A DNA stretch of 64,000 nucleotides, taken from NCBI GenBank assembly GCA_949292725.1, contig CASFAQ010000005.1, forward strand, positions 1 through 64,000. The letters run 5' to 3'. The notes under the pieces are model-generated. The model saw only the letters and a list, made by a program, of their open reading frames with translations, had not been told where the DNA came from and made no database searches. Positions 23,033 through 31,025 of this stretch are shown one piece after another (positions within the stretch are counted from its first letter, which is position 1; each line of letters begins with the position of its first letter). Source of the stretch: an uncultured Eubacteriales bacterium (GTDB lineage Bacteria > Bacillota > Clostridia > Lachnospirales > Lachnospiraceae). A program made the position numbers and the translations under genes.

Positions 23033-23079
23033 AAAAAAAAGACAATCGGCGAAAGTTAGATACTTATCGCTTATTGTCT
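23033..23079 (-). promoter_or_regulatory. Possible transcription attenuator in the amt leader
   Basis: On the minus strand AGACAAT at 23073-23079 pairs with ATTGTCT at 23040-23046, with a further GCG/CGC pair inside, followed by eight Ts (23033-23040). The gene starts 56 bp downstream, so this terminator-like hairpin lies in the leader. A weak promoter (TTTCAA, 16 bp, TAATAT) may lie near 23110-23140. An antiterminator or RNA-binding regulator is inferred, not seen. Confidence 0.5.
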
Positions 23080-23191
23080 CCATTGACTCGACATGTCGTT
23101 ATGCTATTTACCTGACGAAGCTATATTACATCAGTTTATACACTTTGAAAAGTGACAATTCTGTAGTTTTGTATGGGTACAATTTACCGGT

Positions 23192-23226
23192 AAAAAATGT
23201 AGCCTGCATATCTTCATCACAGGCTG
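23192..23226 (-). terminator. Terminator after the acidic membrane protein gene
   Basis: Minus strand AGCCTG/CAGGCT stem with a 13-nt loop followed by ACATTTTTT, 25 bp beyond the stop codon of the gene ending at 23251. Confidence 0.7.
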
Positions 23227-23250
23227 CAACCAAGTCTTTATCTGTATAAG

Positions 23251-23733
23251 TTATTCAAATACATCAAATGGTATCTCAATCTCATTCGGAGAAACTTCCT
23301 TTTCGGACAACGTTTCTTCTGTGTTATCACCGCTGTCGGCAGCATTATCACTTACCGCATCATCAACGTCCGTGGCGTCATCACCATCGGTTACGCTGTC
23401 AGTGGTTACCGCATCGTCGGTTGTCACATCATCACTGCTTACCGAATTGTCACCATCTGTCGCATCATCGTTTCTCACAGAGCCGTCATCATCCGGCTTC
23501 TCACCACTGTCCGTGTTCTCTTTCCCAACGGATACATCATCGTTCTCATTCTGAGAAGAATATTCAGAATCTCCGGCAACAGGTATATCGCCCTCTACAG
23601 CCCCCAAACCGGCATCGGGGGATACATCCTCATCCCCTGTTATACCGTTAATGAACGCTGCAAGCGATATCACAAGCAGAATTCCTATAATAGAATAGGA
23701 AATATATGCGAACAGACTTCTTTTTCTTCTCAT
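23251..23733 (-). CDS. Membrane-anchored acidic, repetitive protein of unknown function
   Basis: A 160-residue protein not recognised as any family. It has a basic start (MRRKRS), one hydrophobic helix at about residues 9-30 (YISYSIIGILLVISLAAFI), and then about 125 extracytoplasmic residues very rich in Asp, Ser, Thr and Val with irregular DDAVTTD- and DGDDATDVDD-like units. The C terminus SPNEIEIPFDVFE is more ordered and hydrophobic. No LPxTG signal is present. It lies 30 bp downstream of the 53-codon gene, in the same transcription unit. The low-complexity acidic stalk suggests a spacer or cation-binding surface protein; function unknown. Confidence 0.65.
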   Translation of the reverse strand: MRRKRSLFAYISYSIIGILLVISLAAFINGITGDEDVSPDAGLGAVEGDIPVAGDSEYSSQNENDDVSVGKENTDSGEKPDDDGSVRNDDATDGDNSVSSDDVTTDDAVTTDSVTDGDDATDVDDAVSDNAADSGDNTEETLSEKEVSPNEIEIPFDVFE

Positions 23734-23763
23734 TACTCATCACCCGTATTTTATAAGTCTCCT

Positions 23764-23925
23764 TTATTCTCCAAAAAATATTTCCATGAAATCCATAGTC
23801 ACATCACTTTGCGCTTCCTCTGCATATTTTCCTGCCAGGGTATTCGACTCAGACGACGTAATTATGATATCCTCATCAGAAAATGATACCACCGAAATCG
23901 AAAGATTTTCATAATTTTTCTTCAT
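23764..23925 (-). CDS. Small 53-aa protein, possible peptide precursor
   Basis: A 53-codon frame beginning MKKNYENLSISVVSFSDEDI and ending VTMDFMEIFFGE, with a TAA at 23764-23766. It sits 40 bp upstream of nothing else but a consensus promoter (24010-24038) and 30 bp ahead of the acidic membrane protein. The start has only a weak GGAT at long distance. The N-terminal pattern MKK-Y--(x)-VVSFS-EDI---S resembles small genes common in Lachnospiraceae that occur with PqqD/HPr-kinase-like proteins, one of which is present at 29877-31025. Whether it is a modified peptide precursor is inference; no cleavage motif is evident. Confidence 0.5.
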   Translation of the reverse strand: MKKNYENLSISVVSFSDEDIIITSSESNTLAGKYAEEAQSDVTMDFMEIFFGE

Positions 23926-24009
23926 GCAAAACCAGCCATCCTTTCTTATAAATAATGTAAGGACAGTTATATGCCGACAGTAGTATTTTCATCAAGATTG
24001 CTTATTTAG

Positions 24010-24038
24010 ATTGTATTCTAAAATGATTGCACAGTCAA
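24010..24038 (-). promoter_or_regulatory. Promoter of the 53-aa gene and acidic protein operon
   Basis: Minus strand TTGACT at 24033-24038, 17-bp spacer, TACAAT at 24010-24015, about 85 bp before the start of the 53-codon gene. A TTGCACA-type element (plus strand 24027-24033) lies in the spacer. Confidence 0.65.
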
Positions 24039-24132
24039 TAGCACCCACCTAAAATAACAACAATAATCGTGCAACCCCCTCCCCGAAAACTATTTTCGTC
24101 GGTAACACATTCGCTCAAATATATTATAATTA

Positions 24133-24180
24133 TTGCACATTTAATTAATTGCACATTAAATATGCACAGTTATATGCACT
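24133..24180. repeat. Cluster of four TGCAC elements upstream of the esterase gene
   Basis: Four copies of TGCAC, the first two as TTGCACAT, start at about 24134, 24150, 24163 and 24175 (spacings 16, 13 and 12 bp). A TATAAT lies just before them at 24124-24129 with a poor -35. Related TGCAC/GTGCA words occur at 24027-24033 and 24069. The 314-bp interval 23926-24239 holds this cluster and two divergent promoters and no other gene. The array could be an operator; this is inference. Confidence 0.5.
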
Positions 24181-24239
24181 GTCATTACATACCAAGATTG
24201 CTAAATACACACTATCTATGAATGGAGGATGATACGTAT

Positions 24240-26639
24240 ATGTTGATGTCAAGATACGAGAAAAAACTAATGTCCGTCGTAATGACTGCCGTTATAATAC
24301 TATCATGTTTTGCCCTTGTTCCCGGTTACGTTAAGGCCGCGGACTCATCCGAGCCACAGGTCAGCGTACTCGGAGCCACACTGAGACTTGCTGACAGCGA
24401 TAACAGCGCCGAAGGCAGACAATCCATGCGAATCGGAATCAGGGTGGCGAGTGCTGATAAGGCAAGCGATTGCGCAATCAGGCTTACAGTAAACGGCAAA
24501 TCCTACACCGTAGCCACAAGTGATGCGGCTAAGGGTGATGATACAGGCTATGTTCATAATAAATTGCATTCTATAAACAATGAAGATAACAGCGTTGTGT
24601 ACGCTGTAGTTCTTACTAACATACCGTATAAGCATTTCTATACGCCTATTGAGATAAAGGGACGTGCGATAACAAACGACGGAACATCTACGACGGTAAA
24701 TTCAGATAAAGAGAACAGGAATGTCATGGGAATCGTAAATTCCCTGCAGAGTAAGTACCCTAATCTTGGAATTAACATTAACGATAACGGAACCATAGTA
24801 AAGAGCAGCGGAGGTGCACTTACCGCTGCTGACCTGGCAGGTTATAGTACTGATTCTCCATCTGATTACGAGACCAAACAGATTGATTTAAATTCCTTTA
24901 ATGCATACGGTGCATACGGTTCCACTAGTGTAGCGTATAATGCATCCACCGGCATTACTGTTAATGCAACAGGTCTTTCATATTTTACACTGCCTATTGA
25001 TACATGTGTTCCAGGCGATACCATAGTTGTGCGTATAAAGGGAACTATTGGAGAGATTTCTAAGGGATTCCGTGTGTATCCAAGTCGCGGAGATAACGGA
25101 CGAATGGTGAAAAATGCGGATATTGAATTATTAGAAGAACCAGGCACGTTCGACAAAACATTAACATACACGATATATGATGATGAACAAAAAAACACGA
25201 ATGCGACAACCCTGTGTATAAATGGTCCGGCATATGACACTGCCCTTACGGATGTAACCATATCCTCTGTGGAAGTAACATATAAGGGTGGCAACCCTGC
25301 ACCGACCGCTGTACCGACAGCAAGGCCAACACCGCCAGCACCTGCAACACCTGCACCGGATTATGACTGGACAAAGATTAACTTTGATACTCTGAGTGTT
25401 GACAAAACAACACAGTATATAACCGATTCTGGCAGTCTTGTATTAAATAACGCTGATTATATAGAAGTTCCTTTAACTACCGCTCAGCCTAAAGAAACCA
25501 CGATAGAGGTATATATTACAGGAATATCATATACGGATACACAGGAATTTCGAGTATGGAGTGGCCAAAGAAATAATTCACGCACATCAAATGTTATCAC
25601 ACCGAATACAGGAACATACGGCACAGAATTTGCGCATACTATAGAGTTAAAGCCTCAGACTAAGGAAGATGGAAATAGTGATTATGATAATGTCACTGAA
25701 TTTAGTCATTTTACTATATGCGCTAAATATGATGGTAAGATTGATGATCTGGAAATAACCTCGCTTTATTACAGGGTTATTTCTGATACAACAGCCAGCG
25801 CATCTCTCCCCGATAAATTTGGCGGAAATAGCACGAACGTACCGGACGGATTTGCGGACACAAACGAATCGGTCGCAGGAACTGTTGTAGATATCAGCTA
25901 CGATTCAACCGCTATAACAGAAGGTAAAACCATAACAAGAAACGCTAAGGTCGTACTTCCAAAGGGCTACGATACTAACGATACTAATACAAAATATCCG
26001 GTATTATATATGCTACATGGTCTATTTGGCGACGAAAAAACCTTATATAACGATAAGACACAATATGTCATATGGAACGCTATTCATGCCGGTACTGCAA
26101 CTGATATGATAGTAGTATTTCCTAATGTATGCGCGAACGAAGCCGGTTCCGGATCAGGATATAATCTTGAACATTATAAGGCATATGATAACTTTATTAA
26201 TGATTTAATAAAATGCCTTATGCCTTATATTAATAATAATTATCATACCCTTACCGGAAGAAGGAATACGGCAATAGCAGGCTTTTCAATGGGAGGTCGC
26301 GAATCGCTCCATATAGGCTTTACCAGGCAGGATTCGTTCAGATACATTGGTGCGTTCTGCCCTGCATTTGGTATATTTGAATATAGCAATTATGGAGTTA
26401 CCGAAAGCGGACTCTTTAAACAGAAAGATTTTACCATTAGTAACGATTACATCAACGATACACTGATTATTATAGCTGCAGGTAAGAACGATGATATAGT
26501 AAAGGATGAACCTAAGCGGTATTCTGACGCTTTGGTAAATAATGGCGTTCCTCATCTTTATTATGAAACTGACGGTAGACACGATTCAAGCGTTTACAAA
26601 CACGGATTATACCAATTTATAACACGTATATTCAAATAA
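24240..26639 (+). CDS. Large secreted modular esterase (feruloyl/acetyl xylan esterase-like)
   Basis: A 799-residue protein with a signal peptide (LMSVVMTAVIILSCFALVPGYVKA). It has an N-terminal domain of unknown fold (to about 200), a beta-rich module (about 215-360), a Pro/Thr linker (PTAVPTARPTPPAPATPAPD), a second similar beta-rich module (about 380-520), and a C-terminal alpha/beta-hydrolase of the Fes/esterase-D type from about residue 540. The hydrolase shows the YPVLYMLHGLFGDE oxyanion strand, nucleophile GFSMGG, an acid near AAGKNDD and His in ETDGRHDSS. It probably removes acyl groups from plant cell-wall polysaccharide outside the cell, with the two modules as carbohydrate-binding candidates. 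GGAGG precedes the ATG at 24240. A strong terminator follows. Confidence 0.85.
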   Translation: MLMSRYEKKLMSVVMTAVIILSCFALVPGYVKAADSSEPQVSVLGATLRLADSDNSAEGRQSMRIGIRVASADKASDCAIRLTVNGKSYTVATSDAAKGDDTGYVHNKLHSINNEDNSVVYAVVLTNIPYKHFYTPIEIKGRAITNDGTSTTVNSDKENRNVMGIVNSLQSKYPNLGININDNGTIVKSSGGALTAADLAGYSTDSPSDYETKQIDLNSFNAYGAYGSTSVAYNASTGITVNATGLSYFTLPIDTCVPGDTIVVRIKGTIGEISKGFRVYPSRGDNGRMVKNADIELLEEPGTFDKTLTYTIYDDEQKNTNATTLCINGPAYDTALTDVTISSVEVTYKGGNPAPTAVPTARPTPPAPATPAPDYDWTKINFDTLSVDKTTQYITDSGSLVLNNADYIEVPLTTAQPKETTIEVYITGISYTDTQEFRVWSGQRNNSRTSNVITPNTGTYGTEFAHTIELKPQTKEDGNSDYDNVTEFSHFTICAKYDGKIDDLEITSLYYRVISDTTASASLPDKFGGNSTNVPDGFADTNESVAGTVVDISYDSTAITEGKTITRNAKVVLPKGYDTNDTNTKYPVLYMLHGLFGDEKTLYNDKTQYVIWNAIHAGTATDMIVVFPNVCANEAGSGSGYNLEHYKAYDNFINDLIKCLMPYINNNYHTLTGRRNTAIAGFSMGGRESLHIGFTRQDSFRYIGAFCPAFGIFEYSNYGVTESGLFKQKDFTISNDYINDTLIIIAAGKNDDIVKDEPKRYSDALVNNGVPHLYYETDGRHDSSVYKHGLYQFITRIFK

Positions 26640-26661
26640 TACTTCTAAGAAAGCATCTCAC

Positions 26662-26697
26662 AAAGCGCCTCCAGGAAGCACACATGGGGGCGCTTTT
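26662..26697 (+). terminator. Terminator after the esterase gene
   Basis: AAAGCGCCTCC pairs with GGGGGCGCTTT (one mismatch), followed by TTATAT; 23 bp past the stop codon. Confidence 0.8.
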
Positions 26698-26720
26698 ATA
26701 TAAAAGTTTAAAAAAAATGA

Positions 26721-26748
26721 TTGACAGCATATATTAATGTAGTACAAT
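26721..26748 (+). promoter_or_regulatory. Consensus promoter facing the Rpn nuclease remnant
   Basis: TTGACA at 26721-26726, 16-bp spacer, TACAAT at 26743-26748. It now reads into a gene that has lost its start. Confidence 0.65.
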
Positions 26749-27612
26749 AAAATACAGAAACAGAAGGAATCCACTGCTGCAGCCGAAAGCTTAACACGTC
26801 TAAGAGATATTTACAGGTACGCTTCGGCACGTACGGATGGCAAGACAGTATACCTTATGCTTGGTCTTGAACTTCAGAACCATATACACTATGCCATGCC
26901 CGTCAGGACAATGTTGTATGATGCGATTGAGTACGACTCCCAGGTCCAAAGAACTGCACGCGCCAACAGGCAGCATCCGGTAACATCAGCAGACGACAGC
27001 TCTTTATCTGACCATACGAGCGATACATTCCTATCAGGCTTTAGGAAAGAGGATAAGCTCATACCTGTCATAACCCTTGTTCTCTATCTCAAACCTGACA
27101 GATGGGACGGGCCAAGAAGCCTTTCCGAAATGTATGCGCCATATGACAAGGCCATAGAACCATATATTAATGATTACAGCATGAATCTTCTGTCTCCGGC
27201 AGAACTTGAATCAGATGATTTTAAATTATTTTCTACCGAGATTGGAAAAGTCCTCGAATTCATCAAATGCTCCAGAGACAAGAAGGATATGGAAACGTTT
27301 ATGAAAGAGAATACCAATCTTAACTTAAGCGGCAAGTCGGTTGTATTTCTTAACGAGGTAACCCATTCAAAACTTACGGTTGATGACAAAGGAGGAGATG
27401 TAGTTATGTGTAAAGCGCTTGATGATATGTGTGCAGATGCAATGGAAGAAGGTCTCAAAAAAGGTCTCAAAAAAGGCCTCAGTGAAGGCGAAAGCCGCAT
27501 GTCCAGACTGATATCTGTTCTGCTTTCACAGAACAACCTTGAAGCCGCAAAGCTGGCAACCAGCGATTCGGATGCCCGGAACAGACTGTATAAGCAGTAC
27601 AATATTATATAA
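26749..27612 (+). pseudogene. Rpn-family (PD-(D/E)XK) nuclease/transposase-like protein, 5'-truncated
   Basis: The frame opens after a TAG at 26740 and reads ...RDIYRYASARTDGKTVYLMLGLELQNHIHYAMPVRTML... to the TAA at 27612; no start codon with a ribosome binding site is available (first ATG 26857). Full Rpn proteins have a further N-terminal part with the first catalytic Asp, which is missing. The preserved part keeps IHYAMPVR-MLYDAIEY, the PVITLVLYL strand, and the Gly-rich tail EGLKKGLKKGLSEG typical of the family. Rpn proteins are mobile-like nucleases found in many copies in Lachnospiraceae genomes. The IS remnant abuts its stop codon. Confidence 0.75.
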
Positions 27613-28910
27613 CCACAAATATTCCTTCCATTTGCTTTTCTTCCGGATTGTTCTCATTTTACTTTTGGTTATGAATTGGTAGTCTGTCCGGAAACCACAG
27701 GCTTCATGAAGATCATCCGTAATTTTTTCCCGTCGATACAGTGGAATGAATCCCTGCTCCCGTATCCCGGCAAAAAATATCGCTTTTAGTGCGTCTAAGA
27801 GTTCTTCACATGTATATTTTGAATTCGGTTTTCTTTCAAGGTAACGGTAGATGGTCAATGCAAGGAAAGAGATCAGAAAATGTGCCTTGATCCGGTTTTC
27901 TTCTCGCAAATAAACCGGCCGCGCAGAAAAATCTGTTGTCATGCCCCGGAAGCATTCCTCAATCTGCCATCTGCCTTCACTTACTTTTAAAATATCACTG
28001 ACTTCATCATCCAAAAGATCCGTACATACTGCATAGAGTCCATCATACTGCGAATCCGGTATTTTTTGTGTCCGCTCCACCTGTTTGTCGCGGATAGATT
28101 TCTGATACAGAGCATACTTTGGAGAATAAGTTATGATTAAACGTCGGTGCAGTTTTTTTGTGGTATATGGTTCATCCTTGTAATAAAGCTCTTTGTCATC
28201 TTCCGGCAGTTTCGTGATATGATATAAGCCCGTTCTCCTATATGGTTGTATTCCCGGATGGATTTTGAACCCAGTTCGGCATCGCTGCAGTAAATAAATT
28301 TCTGGCAGCCAAAATCACCAAGAACTTTTTTTTCCAGCGGCTTCAGCGATGTCTGCTCGTTTGCGTTTCCGGGAAAGAGGGAGAAAGCGAGAGGAATCCC
28401 GTCTTCATCCATGAATAACCCCATTTGAATAATCTGGTTTGGCCTGTGCTCTTTACCCTTTCCGTATTTTTTACTGCCGTCCTCCTGTTCGATCTCGAAA
28501 TAATAATTCGAGCAGTCATAATAGAGGATCGTATCACTCCTTTGACTATTGATGTCATATTTAAACTTATATCTTTGTTTCAATTTTCGGCAGATTTTAT
28601 TCATCTGCATCTGATAATAGATTGATTGAAGGAAAAGGTAGCCTCCTCGGTAAAAAACCTGCTTATCATAATCTAACTGCCTGTCTGCATGAAATGGGAT
28701 CATAACCGTTTTAGCTTCTTTTTCCTTCTTATATTTTTCGGTTTCTATTTTCACTTCATTCTTTGCCCATGCAAGGACATCATCTCTTGTCGGACCATGC
28801 TTAACCAAAAGCTGTTCTAAAGTTCCCAGCTTGCGGACAATCATGGAAGAAGTGCTGCCATTATCTTTTACATAAGATCTGCAGATGTAAAACGACTCTG
28901 CATTTTTTGA
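27613..28910 (-). mobile_element. Degraded IS1634/IS4-family insertion sequence (transposase pseudogene)
   Basis: Minus strand transposase in two frames. The first part (to about 28140) contains YDCSNYYFE with the first catalytic Asp, then KGKEHRPNQIIQMGLFMDE and SDAELGS with the second. Near 28210-28225 the frame shifts: the other frame reads ITKLPEDDKELYYKDEPYTT and goes on to IEECFRGM, which has the DDE Glu. The 5' part extends in frame past the first ATG (ESFYICRSYVKDNG) to a TAA near 28915, so the native start is lost. At the other end the frame runs into the neighbouring Rpn gene, so the native stop is lost too. No terminal inverted repeats were seen. It is immobile unless helped by another copy. 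Confidence 0.8.
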
Positions 28911-28955
28911 TTACTCAACTGTCAAACTCGCGTGCAGACAAGCGACTGACAGGAT

Positions 28956-28984
28956 TTGCGTTACATCGTTTTTTAATATATAAT
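28956..28984 (+). promoter_or_regulatory. Promoter of the sortase gene
   Basis: TTGCGT at 28956-28961, 17-bp spacer, TATAAT at 28979-28984, 31 bp before the start codon and just outside the IS remnant. Confidence 0.6.
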
Positions 28985-29015
28985 GTAGAAATATTAAGAG
29001 TAAGGAGAGCCTGTT

Positions 29016-29861
29016 ATGTCACCGTGTGAGTGCATCTGGCGATACCAAAGTATGAAAAAGCATATTTCTACAATAATACTTGTTCTGATATTCTGTGTGG
29101 GTCTTACGGTGCTGTTATATCCCGTTGTCAGTGACTGGTGGAACAGTAAAGTACAGACGAGAGCTATTATGTCCTATGAGGAGAGCGTTGCAGATATGGA
29201 TGAGGCGGATTATGAAGCGGAATTTGCAAAAGCAGATGCATATAATGCTAGTCTTAGAGAGATTTCGATGCCGCTTATGAATTATGAGCAGGTTGAAGGT
29301 TATGAAGAGGCGCTTAATGTGACGGGCAATGGCATGATGGGTTATGTGACTATAGACAAGATTGGTGTCAGACTTCCGATATACCATGGAACGTCGGATA
29401 ATGTACTTAATGTGGCTGTGGGCAATCTGAGAGGTTCGTCGCTGCCGGTTGGGGGCATCGGTACACATTGTGTGTTATCGGCGCATCGCGGACTTCCAAG
29501 TGCAAAGTTGTTCTCTGATCTCGATAAGCTTAAGGAAGGGGATACATTTACGATAAATGTACTCAACAGGCTGCTTACATATGAGATTGATCATATTAGT
29601 ATCGTTGAGCCCGATAAGATAGAGGAGCTTTACATAGATGAAGAAAAGGACTACTGCACTCTTATGACGTGTACGCCATATGGTATCAATACGCACAGAC
29701 TGCTTGTACGTGCAGTTCGTATAGAGAATGCAAAAGAGGCAGTGACTCTTACAAATGACGCATATGAACTTGATTCACTTATTCTTGCACCGATAGTTGC
29801 AGTGCCGCTTCTACTGATACTTTTTGTGTTTGTGCTTGTAAGATATCGCAAAAAGAAGTAG
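29016..29861 (+). CDS. Class C sortase
   Basis: A 281-residue membrane transpeptidase with an N-terminal helix (ISTIILVLIFCVGLTVLLYPV), a class-C-like pre-domain (DEADYEAEFAKADAYNAS) and the sortase barrel: GYVTIDKIGVRLPIYHGTS, catalytic His in VLSAHRGLPSAKLFSDL, catalytic Cys in TLMTCTPYG and Arg in NTHRLLVRA. A second helix lies near the C terminus, followed by RYRKKK. Class C enzymes polymerise pilins bearing LPxTG-like signals. AAGGAG precedes the ATG at 29016 at normal spacing; an internal ATG (29052) is an alternative. No pilin or LPxTG protein is encoded in the window, so its substrate gene is elsewhere or was lost, perhaps with the rearrangements next door. Confidence 0.88.
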   Translation: MSPCECIWRYQSMKKHISTIILVLIFCVGLTVLLYPVVSDWWNSKVQTRAIMSYEESVADMDEADYEAEFAKADAYNASLREISMPLMNYEQVEGYEEALNVTGNGMMGYVTIDKIGVRLPIYHGTSDNVLNVAVGNLRGSSLPVGGIGTHCVLSAHRGLPSAKLFSDLDKLKEGDTFTINVLNRLLTYEIDHISIVEPDKIEELYIDEEKDYCTLMTCTPYGINTHRLLVRAVRIENAKEAVTLTNDAYELDSLILAPIVAVPLLLILFVFVLVRYRKKK

Positions 29862-29876
29862 TGGCATAATGCTTTG

Positions 29877-31025
29877 TCAGATGCAGTATGTATCTATATG
29901 TGTTTTCATGACGTCTGCAGCAGAGGGATTCTTGGTACATAACAGTCGGAAGAATGGAACAGAATCCAAGACAGCTTCCGCAAATTTTAATGAGTTTTCG
30001 ATATGGGACTGCGTCCATGAAGGAGATATCAATCTCTGTACGAAGAAGAGTATTTTTTCGTCCCTGTCAGGAATGATAACCCTATCGTAAGGCGCCTGTC
30101 TTAGGAAAGCGATTCCACCTAAAGGATGGGTTTCTGCAGAGTGTATACCGGACGTGCCGCACCATGGCAGACCATATACTACGGCAGAACCATTATGAAA
30201 GCCTATCATATTAAGGTCGCCGTTCAGAATAGGAGTGTTGTAATTATCCCTCCAGATGTTGGTGTGGGTGGATTTGCCGGTGCCGGCCATTCCGGAGAAA
30301 AGCCAGGCCTTACCCTTATATAATATGGAAGCGGAATGGAGTATGTACTTATCGTTTGCCATGGCAAGGATAAGAAAAGCAAATCTTATGGCATGAAAAA
30401 GTTCCGTTACGGCTTCATCGGACTGATTATCCTTACAGTAAACGCTCACATGGTTTCCGTCCTTTGAAGAGATGAGCTCATACACATTGGAACTAAGGAA
30501 TATGATTACATAACTGTCATTGGTTTCCGATACGATAAGCTCCTTGTTGCGCACGAGGATATTGCCGTTAATATGCTTGTAAGGATGATACGTAAGAACT
30601 TGTATCGTCTGATGACAGGTTTGAGCAGGTGGTTCACATGAAAAATCGCTAAAATATTGCTCGCATAGTTTATCAGCGCCCGAAAGCGCTATGTTAAGGT
30701 CGCCGATTCGTATATGTCGCGCGTTCATTCCCGAATAATTTGGGGAATTATCGCTCATAATTATATTATTGATCTTAAGGACATTAATATAATCCGATAT
30801 CTCCTGTTTAAGATCTGCAGGATTGTCCCAGGAAGAATCATATGCCTTTGATATGACATTAAGAAGCTCATCCTCATCGGCGCCGCTGATTATATGTGAT
30901 AATAAAAGGTCTGCTGTTTCGTTAAGCTTAAGAGCTTTTGAGAAATCAGCTGCCTGCTGGCCGTATGGGATGAGGTATGGTATACCATTAATTAATGTTC
31001 TTGTATACGAAGGATTAATCTTCAT
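29877..31025 (-). CDS. PqqD-like / HPr kinase-like ATP-binding protein
   Basis: A 382-residue protein. The first about 95 residues resemble PqqD-type peptide-binding domains (NGIPYLIPYGQQAADFSKAL, LNETADLLLSHI, SDYINVLKINNI). The C-terminal half is an HPr-kinase/PEP-carboxykinase-like P-loop domain: LHSASILYKGKAWLFSGMAG, Walker A SGMAGTGKSTHTNIW, NGDLNMIG and YGLPWCGTSGI. It is not true HPrK: the family signature around the HPr-binding loop is missing and the N-terminal domain differs. Similar proteins occur in clostridial loci with small precursor-like genes. The ATG at 31025 has AAGGAG at proper distance; an upstream in-frame start at 31043 does not. Function unknown; convergent with the sortase. 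Confidence 0.75.
   Translation of the reverse strand: MKINPSYTRTLINGIPYLIPYGQQAADFSKALKLNETADLLLSHIISGADEDELLNVISKAYDSSWDNPADLKQEISDYINVLKINNIIMSDNSPNYSGMNARHIRIGDLNIALSGADKLCEQYFSDFSCEPPAQTCHQTIQVLTYHPYKHINGNILVRNKELIVSETNDSYVIIFLSSNVYELISSKDGNHVSVYCKDNQSDEAVTELFHAIRFAFLILAMANDKYILHSASILYKGKAWLFSGMAGTGKSTHTNIWRDNYNTPILNGDLNMIGFHNGSAVVYGLPWCGTSGIHSAETHPLGGIAFLRQAPYDRVIIPDRDEKILFFVQRLISPSWTQSHIENSLKFAEAVLDSVPFFRLLCTKNPSAADVMKTHIDTYCI

Follow-up and report, generated by a model that had tools for sequence, protein, structure and literature searches.

What is the 53-codon frame at positions 23764-23925 of a Lachnospiraceae genome fragment, and which of the proteins around it belong with it? The stretch in question, here called the window, comprises 64,000 nucleotides (nt) of contig CASFAQ010000005.1 from an uncultured Eubacteriales bacterium (assembly GCA_949292725.1, positions 1 to 64,000). 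A first-pass annotation had proposed that the small gene, the acidic membrane protein encoded behind it and a PqqD/HPrK-like protein about 6 kb away might form one uncharacterised peptide system. We found that the small family, anchored acidic proteins and PqqD/HPrK-like proteins do belong together, and that the window's peptide probably has its enzymes encoded on another contig of the same genome, C24. With moderate confidence we regard the 53-aa product as the precursor peptide of an RRE-type maturation system, the C24 enzymes acting in trans.

A conserved family of small precursor-like proteins

The small gene and its two parts are as follows.

23764..23925, minus strand: 53-aa precursor-like small gene (P0001); profile E 1.6e-16 in its own genome, where P0001 is also a profile seed
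23854..23925, minus strand: leader-like part, residues 1-24, in which Y5, I10, F15, E18, D19, I20 and S24 are conserved positions of the small family
23764..23853, minus strand: variable C-terminal part, residues 25-53 and the stop codon, ending MDFMEIFFGE

Comparison of sequences indicates that the 53-codon frame is a genuine gene of a widespread small precursor-like family. AAAGGA is found about 14 nt upstream of its ATG. Sixty-one relatives were searched, and a profile (A1) was built from 16 members, in all of which Y5, F15, E18, D19 and S24 are invariant. The leader grammar of the family can be written Y..[P/L].[ILV]..7..E-D-[IV]-I..S; this pattern was found in 32 of 32 small proteins, misplaced in two of them (L065, L130). 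Synonymous changes prevail in 10 of 11 pairs of small genes, with ratios of nonsynonymous to synonymous change (pN/pS) of 0.21 to 0.42; the eleventh pair, the most similar one with 11 changes, gave 1.76. A chance open reading frame is therefore hardly credible, even though the frame is short and the family has no convincing Pfam or NCBIfam model (the 16 members yielded one weak, unrelated match in each library), as it has relatives in many genomes, low pN/pS values and conserved partner genes. Conservation of the frame, named by the first-pass annotation as a test of its proposal, was thus confirmed. The C-terminal parts of the small proteins are acidic in the window's genus, unlike those of L183, L202, L221 and L233 (Faecalibacterium, Blautia and related bacteria), which are rich in Cys and Trp (e.g., L202:13315).

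Co-occurrence with an HPrK-like kinase and PqqD

We sampled 250 genomes of the window's family, one per genus, and detected the small family in 15, the HPrK-like kinase in 65 and PqqD in 71. All 15 small-gene genomes harbor both kinase and PqqD (hypergeometric 4e-10 and 2e-9), and removal of the four genomes that had provided profile seeds left 11 of 11 (1e-7 and 3e-7). The second test named by the first-pass annotation, co-occurrence of the two families, accordingly gave a positive answer. Small gene and kinase lie within about 10 kb of each other in 11 of the 15 genomes. The kinase was found in one of 18 checked genomes of the same family without the small gene.

Named loci were recruited by kinase alignment alone, without use of the small gene, and the best 80 of 588 relatives were analyzed. 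Of these, 60 contained PqqD and 53 a protease; the small gene was detected in 20, one of which (L164) is a record of a seed genome. These loci gave 26 small-protein matches, versus 0 among 13,542 reversed decoys (E<=0.01). The named carriers of the small gene include Faecalibacterium gallinarum, F. prausnitzii, Blautia schinkii, Eubacterium barkeri and an Erysipelotrichaceae metagenome-assembled genome.

A complete cassette on another contig of the same genome

Two further genes of the window are needed for comparison with C24.

23251..23733, minus strand: 160-aa acidic protein with a single N-terminal hydrophobic segment, ending NEIEIPFDVFE; co-directional with the small gene and 30 nt behind it
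24240..26639, plus strand: secreted protein of the carbohydrate-binding module (CBM)/esterase type (Esterase PF00756, E 3.5e-18), divergent from the small gene

C24 contains a paralogous locus in which a small gene (L003:6341-6493) is followed by an acidic protein gene (L003:6524-6985), with the same order and the same 30-nt gap as in the window. Also on C24 are paralogues of the CBM/esterase gene found in the window, and with them genes for a split HPrK-like kinase, an S26-type protease, a PqqD protein, an NTP_transf_5-like nucleotidyltransferase and an ABC exporter. Since C24 carries the whole set in the same genome, the grouping put forward in the first-pass annotation was right in kind. 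Its remark that no modifying enzyme was visible can be dropped, the kinase being the likely modifying enzyme. Two more PqqD proteins are encoded in the window's genome (G000:C3:29863-30117 and G000:C85:4672-4929), and one of them adjoins a nucleotidyltransferase-like protein.

The split PqqD of C24 scores 52.4 bits with Pfam PF05402 (cut-off, 23.4), and the structures nearest to the PqqD profile are those of lasso B1/RRE proteins, namely, TbiB1 (E 1.3e-7) and also TfuB1. In the kinase, H90, G108, G110, K111 and D132 are invariant in 15 of 15 sequences; the list of motifs (His, P-loop GxxGxGKS and Asp) follows PMC10368454. The first Gly of GxxGxGKS is Ala in the split kinase class and Gly245 in the fusion protein of the window described below. 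Ser26, His69 and Asp90 of the protease are invariant in 21 of 21 sequences, and SEC11/SpsB are the nearest structures. The protease thus has the catalytic positions and the fold of the S26 signal peptidases of the SipW and archaeal-ER types. It differs from them in its length of about 150 aa, the lack of an evident N-terminal membrane anchor and the presence of kinase and PqqD at all loci studied, and it scores below the family cut-offs (SipW, 29.6 of 190 bits; TIGR02228, 28.8 of 51.85 bits). A peptide-type ABC exporter is recurrent in the f1 cassettes.

The PqqD-HPrK fusion of the window and its sister class

The PqqD/HPrK-like protein noted in the window in the first pass is indeed present, 5.95 kb from the small gene.

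29877..31025, minus strand: PqqD-HPrK-like fusion of 382 aa (P0003)
30732..31025, minus strand: PqqD/RRE-like domain of the fusion
29880..30734, minus strand: HPrK-like kinase domain of the fusion, with H230, GxxGxGKS (245-252) and D270
27526..28844, minus strand: insertion sequence (IS) remnant between the small gene and the fusion, its transposase split over two frames

The PqqD domain of the fusion matches Pfam PF05402 with E=0.0032 and 18.2 bits, for a curated cut-off of 23.4. The AlphaFold2 model of the protein (pLDDT 86.4) has its best PDB fold matches in PEPCK and HprK/P (E 3e-6 and 2e-5, with low TM-scores). A contig scan with P0003 alone detected no relatives. The region between the genes had been described as rearranged by an IS and an Rpn remnant. 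The IS part of that description is supported, with DDE_Tnp_1 matching one of the two transposase frames slightly under the cut-off (E=1.3e-4); for the frame labelled Rpn, Pfam gives nothing at E<=0.01.

One explanation for this arrangement would be that the fusion is the dedicated modifier of the window's small peptide, from which it was separated by the IS. The distance with the IS remnant in between fits this idea, and the fusion is of the same broad protein kind as the kinase and PqqD of the cassettes, with a leader spacing common to the precursors of both classes. We nevertheless consider it quite unlikely. At 16 loci a single frame encodes both PqqD and kinase, and the window alone among them has the small gene on the same contig (0 of the 15 others). 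Elsewhere, such fusions adjoin an ABC exporter, an S26-type protease and proteins of 120 to 150 aa that start MKxYxKPxV...EGVYAASG. Examination of other genomes placed these class-2 precursors within a few kb of a class-2 kinase in 7 of 7, the precursors themselves having been found at those loci. In the window's genome, C13 encodes an EGVYAASG precursor (E 9e-43; not a seed), and C11 holds an exporter and a protease.

The window fusion thus belongs to this sister class and probably does not work with the window's small gene. Because no other fusion locus has the small gene on its contig and the genome's own class-2 precursor is on C13, the proximity of the two genes is most simply explained by chance in a region that has been rearranged. 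Consequently, the first-pass grouping stands at the level of the families, with the C24 locus, the 15 of 15 genomes and the 20 of 80 kinase loci, and probably falls for the local link to the fusion.

The sister class resembles the small-gene system in its kinase, protease, exporter and leader spacing, and differs in that its precursors have a long C-terminal part and its kinase is fused to PqqD. The leader positions Y, +3, +5, +13 to +16, +19 and +20 coincide in the two precursor classes. In ten aligned examples, Tyr, Pro/Leu, Glu, Ser and Gly are equally spaced in both, Gly being at +20 in two of five class-1 sequences. We found no name or description of the EGVYAASG/fusion class in the open-access literature.

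Association with large surface proteins

At the order level, the small family was detected in 35 of 295 genomes. Of these, 32 belong to a single second family, f11, and one genome can hold as many as 17 small-family matches (both figures among the matches listed). The kinase is present in 30 of the 32 f11 genomes, and the two exceptions are assemblies that are 70 to 71% complete. Kinase, PqqD and protease are adjacent in 11 of 12 f11 stretches; at L250, the kinase had been placed by the search and was not recovered by gene calling.

In the window's family, a secreted-type protein of at least 300 aa is encoded within 700 nt of 24 of 32 small genes; for the remaining small genes at these loci, the figure is 54 of 221 (p 4e-8). 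The f11 stretches that were fetched came from the stronger matches, and in them every small gene (20 of 20) lies behind a co-directional gene for a protein of 279 to 1,591 aa, at distances of -4 to +58 nt. Seven of these preceding proteins were scanned, revealing BspA-type leucine-rich repeat, List_Bact, InlB B-repeat, NEAT or pectate lyase domains, or nothing.

The tight coupling in f11, from a 4-nt overlap to a 58-nt gap in 20 of 20 cases, is also what one would expect of a small protein that is neither processed nor exported and that serves as an intracellular regulator or chaperone of the coupled surface protein, the kinase-PqqD-protease set controlling the small protein or acting mainly elsewhere. 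In keeping with this, the 12 f11 stretches showed neither a full exporter nor a nucleotidyltransferase next to the triad. The peptide-type exporter that recurs in the f1 cassettes argues against it, however, and the leader grammar and the RRE point to a substrate. We regard this explanation as rather unlikely, although it is the strongest of the alternatives.

A predicted membrane-anchored acidic partner

The first-pass proposal of a membrane-anchored acidic partner agrees with prediction, the 160-aa protein having one N-terminal hydrophobic segment; from this anchor, its tail should be outside the cell. A scan of positions 23050 to 24300 found no terminator (shuffles, mean 0.5). Proteins of this type, which are short, with an N-terminal membrane segment or a lipoprotein-like start and a long acidic disordered tail, recur near the small gene or the kinase. 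An acidic protein is encoded upstream of the kinase in 9 of 55 cases, versus 16 of 619 for other genes (p 6e-5). In L165, L166, L173, L188, L189 and L238, the kinase is preceded by a related-looking protein of 213 to 222 aa with an N-terminal hydrophobic stretch and the end ..Y.xxNI..F.

The acidic membrane protein is a recurrent partner whose C terminus tends to copy that of the small peptide of the same locus. Such pairs of ends are GWSGYY/GWTGYY (G163), IELPVIPID/IELPVIPIG (L237), ELPILPAN/ELPIIPVQ (L234) and ILFDDLF/ISFEDLF (C24). An earlier test on 11 pairs gave a weak signal (p 0.015; 0.03 to 0.16 with one pair from the window's genus). With 15 pairs, the permutation p was 0.0005, and 0.0016 to 0.032 over eight choices of one pair per genus. 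Both tests are exploratory, the sequences having been seen beforehand, and the set of 15 was partly hand-picked: the filter had missed the acidic proteins of the window, G153 and G034, and these were put in by hand. We left out L060 (another kind of candidate), L164 (same record as G002), L128 (truncated), L058 (acidic protein with a C-terminal membrane segment) and L084/G016 (contig without a small gene). Several pairs without resemblance were kept, G084, G111 and G153 ranking 14th, 15th and 12th; the pair from the window, with a weak likeness, comes 5th of 15. The ending F/W-x-x-L-F occurs in 8 of 744 called genes, all of them for small or acidic proteins, from which the pattern itself was derived.

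Secreted Big_2-domain proteins adjoin the PqqD gene at three loci (L003:708-1265, L055:7086-7769 and L065:6617-7282). They end in DDGWIQGWY, DEGWVPGWY and DDGWIPGWY, respectively, and some of the small and acidic proteins have C termini of this type as well.

Proposed maturation pathway

The chemical steps that we propose rest on an analogy with lasso peptide clusters. In one of these, the HPrK-like BsfK phosphorylates BsfA faster in the presence of BsfB1, and the YxxPxL motif of the leader matters (PMC10368454); in another, the pseudomycoidin nucleotidyltransferase adds sugars to the phosphate (PMC8498205). By analogy, the small PqqD (RRE) protein would bind the N-terminal leader of about 24 residues, and the HPrK-like kinase would phosphorylate a Ser or Thr of the bound peptide. 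The signal-peptidase-like Ser/His protease (S26-type) may then cut near a conserved TS(G/S) and remove the leader, while the nucleotidyltransferase may decorate the phosphate. In the window's family, the peptide would leave the cell through the ABC exporter encoded in the cassette. For the window's peptide, the C24 enzymes would work in trans, in the way that a single cassette might serve the many dispersed precursors of f11. Outside, the peptide might interact with the surface protein and with the acidic membrane protein as its anchored partner. The fusion of the window would serve the sister class of longer EGVYAASG precursors.

Several observations weigh against this pathway, in addition to the f11 triads without exporter or nucleotidyltransferase. 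In 4 of the 15 small-gene genomes the kinase is more distant, being on another contig in G084, G130 and G273 and on other contigs or 49 kb away in G142. The small gene was not seen at threshold in 50 of the 65 kinase genomes or in 60 of the 80 kinase loci, meaning that the kinase works with other partners or that its precursors there have diverged. YxxPx[ILVM] is present in 17 of 32 small proteins, and the window copy reads YENLSI, with Leu at the Pro site. Finally, S24 is the sole invariant Ser/Thr in the small family.

We also considered a broader model of a surface system controlled by peptides. One kinase-RRE-protease cassette would mature many peptides, each made together with its own large adhesin- or enzyme-like surface protein, while a membrane-anchored acidic stalk would carry a copy of the peptide's C-terminal motif on the cell exterior. 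The two would compete for one partner, and the phosphorylated peptides would set the hold or release of the surface proteins. This model is speculative and, taken as a whole, unlikely to be right. The C-terminal likeness of the peptide and its anchored partner makes a search for the partner directly testable.

Relation to lasso peptide clusters and other known systems

According to PMC10368454 and PMC8498205, the phosphorylated lasso clusters (paeninodin pade, Bradymonas bsf and pseudomycoidin psm) share with the small-gene cassettes a PqqD-type RRE, an HPrK-like kinase, often a nucleotidyltransferase, and an ABC exporter. The YxxPxL leader of the lasso clusters has a counterpart in the 17 of 32 small proteins with YxxPx[ILVM], and their RRE-accelerated phosphorylation is the model for the pathway proposed here. 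The small-gene cassettes, unlike lasso clusters, have a signal-peptidase-like Ser/His protease in place of the B2 cysteine protease and cyclase, and their systems comprise many dispersed precursors beside secreted surface proteins and an anchored acidic partner.

One might therefore ask whether we are dealing with a phosphorylated lasso cluster whose lasso enzymes were missed or are encoded elsewhere, given that such clusters, according to the same sources, are tailored by RRE, HPrK-like kinase, NTP_transf_5 and ABC exporter and that the leader resembles the YxxP type. The B2 protease (PF13471) was detected in 3 of 22 genomes, one of the matches being above the cut-off (G002:C4; the cassette contig is C21), and in none at the small-gene cassette. 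The cyclase (PF00733) was detected in 15 of 22 genomes, never on the contig of the small-gene cassette. In G002, both families are found on C4, and on C51 a PF00733 cyclase adjoins a weak kinase match; as these lasso-type genes were detected, the search is able to see such clusters. From these 22 genomes, a lasso peptide cluster is very improbable, and by analogy the cassette looks like lasso-type phosphorylation machinery without lasso formation. G002:C4 and G002:C51 are themselves probable lasso clusters in the same genus.

HPrK-related kinases also adjoin PqqD-related proteins in TIGR04352 (HprK-related kinase A) and in the SynChlorMet proteins ScmC/ScmD (TIGR04249/TIGR04248). The proteins studied here score 15 to 26 bits with these models, for curated values of 125 to 200; for TIGR04352 (curated at 200 bits), the scores are 15.2 for P0003 and 20.4 for the C24 kinase. 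MAM of Faecalibacterium was discarded as a relative, having a double-Gly leader for a C39 transporter (PMC12184118).

No description of a non-lasso HPrK-PqqD-protease peptide system was found in the open-access literature, subscription papers being outside this coverage, and the words kinase and HPr are absent from RRE-Finder (PMC7470986) and from a 2025 RRE paper (PMC12710340). The small family and its cassette are thus provisionally regarded as apparently undescribed. If the proposed pathway is correct, a lasso-type phosphorylation apparatus has been uncoupled from lasso formation across gut Clostridia, and HPrK-like, PqqD and NTP_transf_5 proteins currently without a function would acquire one. 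RRE systems would also gain a signal-peptidase-like leader protease, and modified peptides would be tied to the surface proteins of abundant gut bacteria.

Other features of the window

A role in anti-phage defence was dropped, six proteins having been compared with PADLOC without any match. One more gene lies next to the fusion.

29052..29861, plus strand: intact class C sortase (NCBIfam, 269 bits; cut-off, 160)

A single phmmer query, with no sortase profile run on the other loci, met a sortase in the window only, where it adjoins the PqqD-HPrK fusion.

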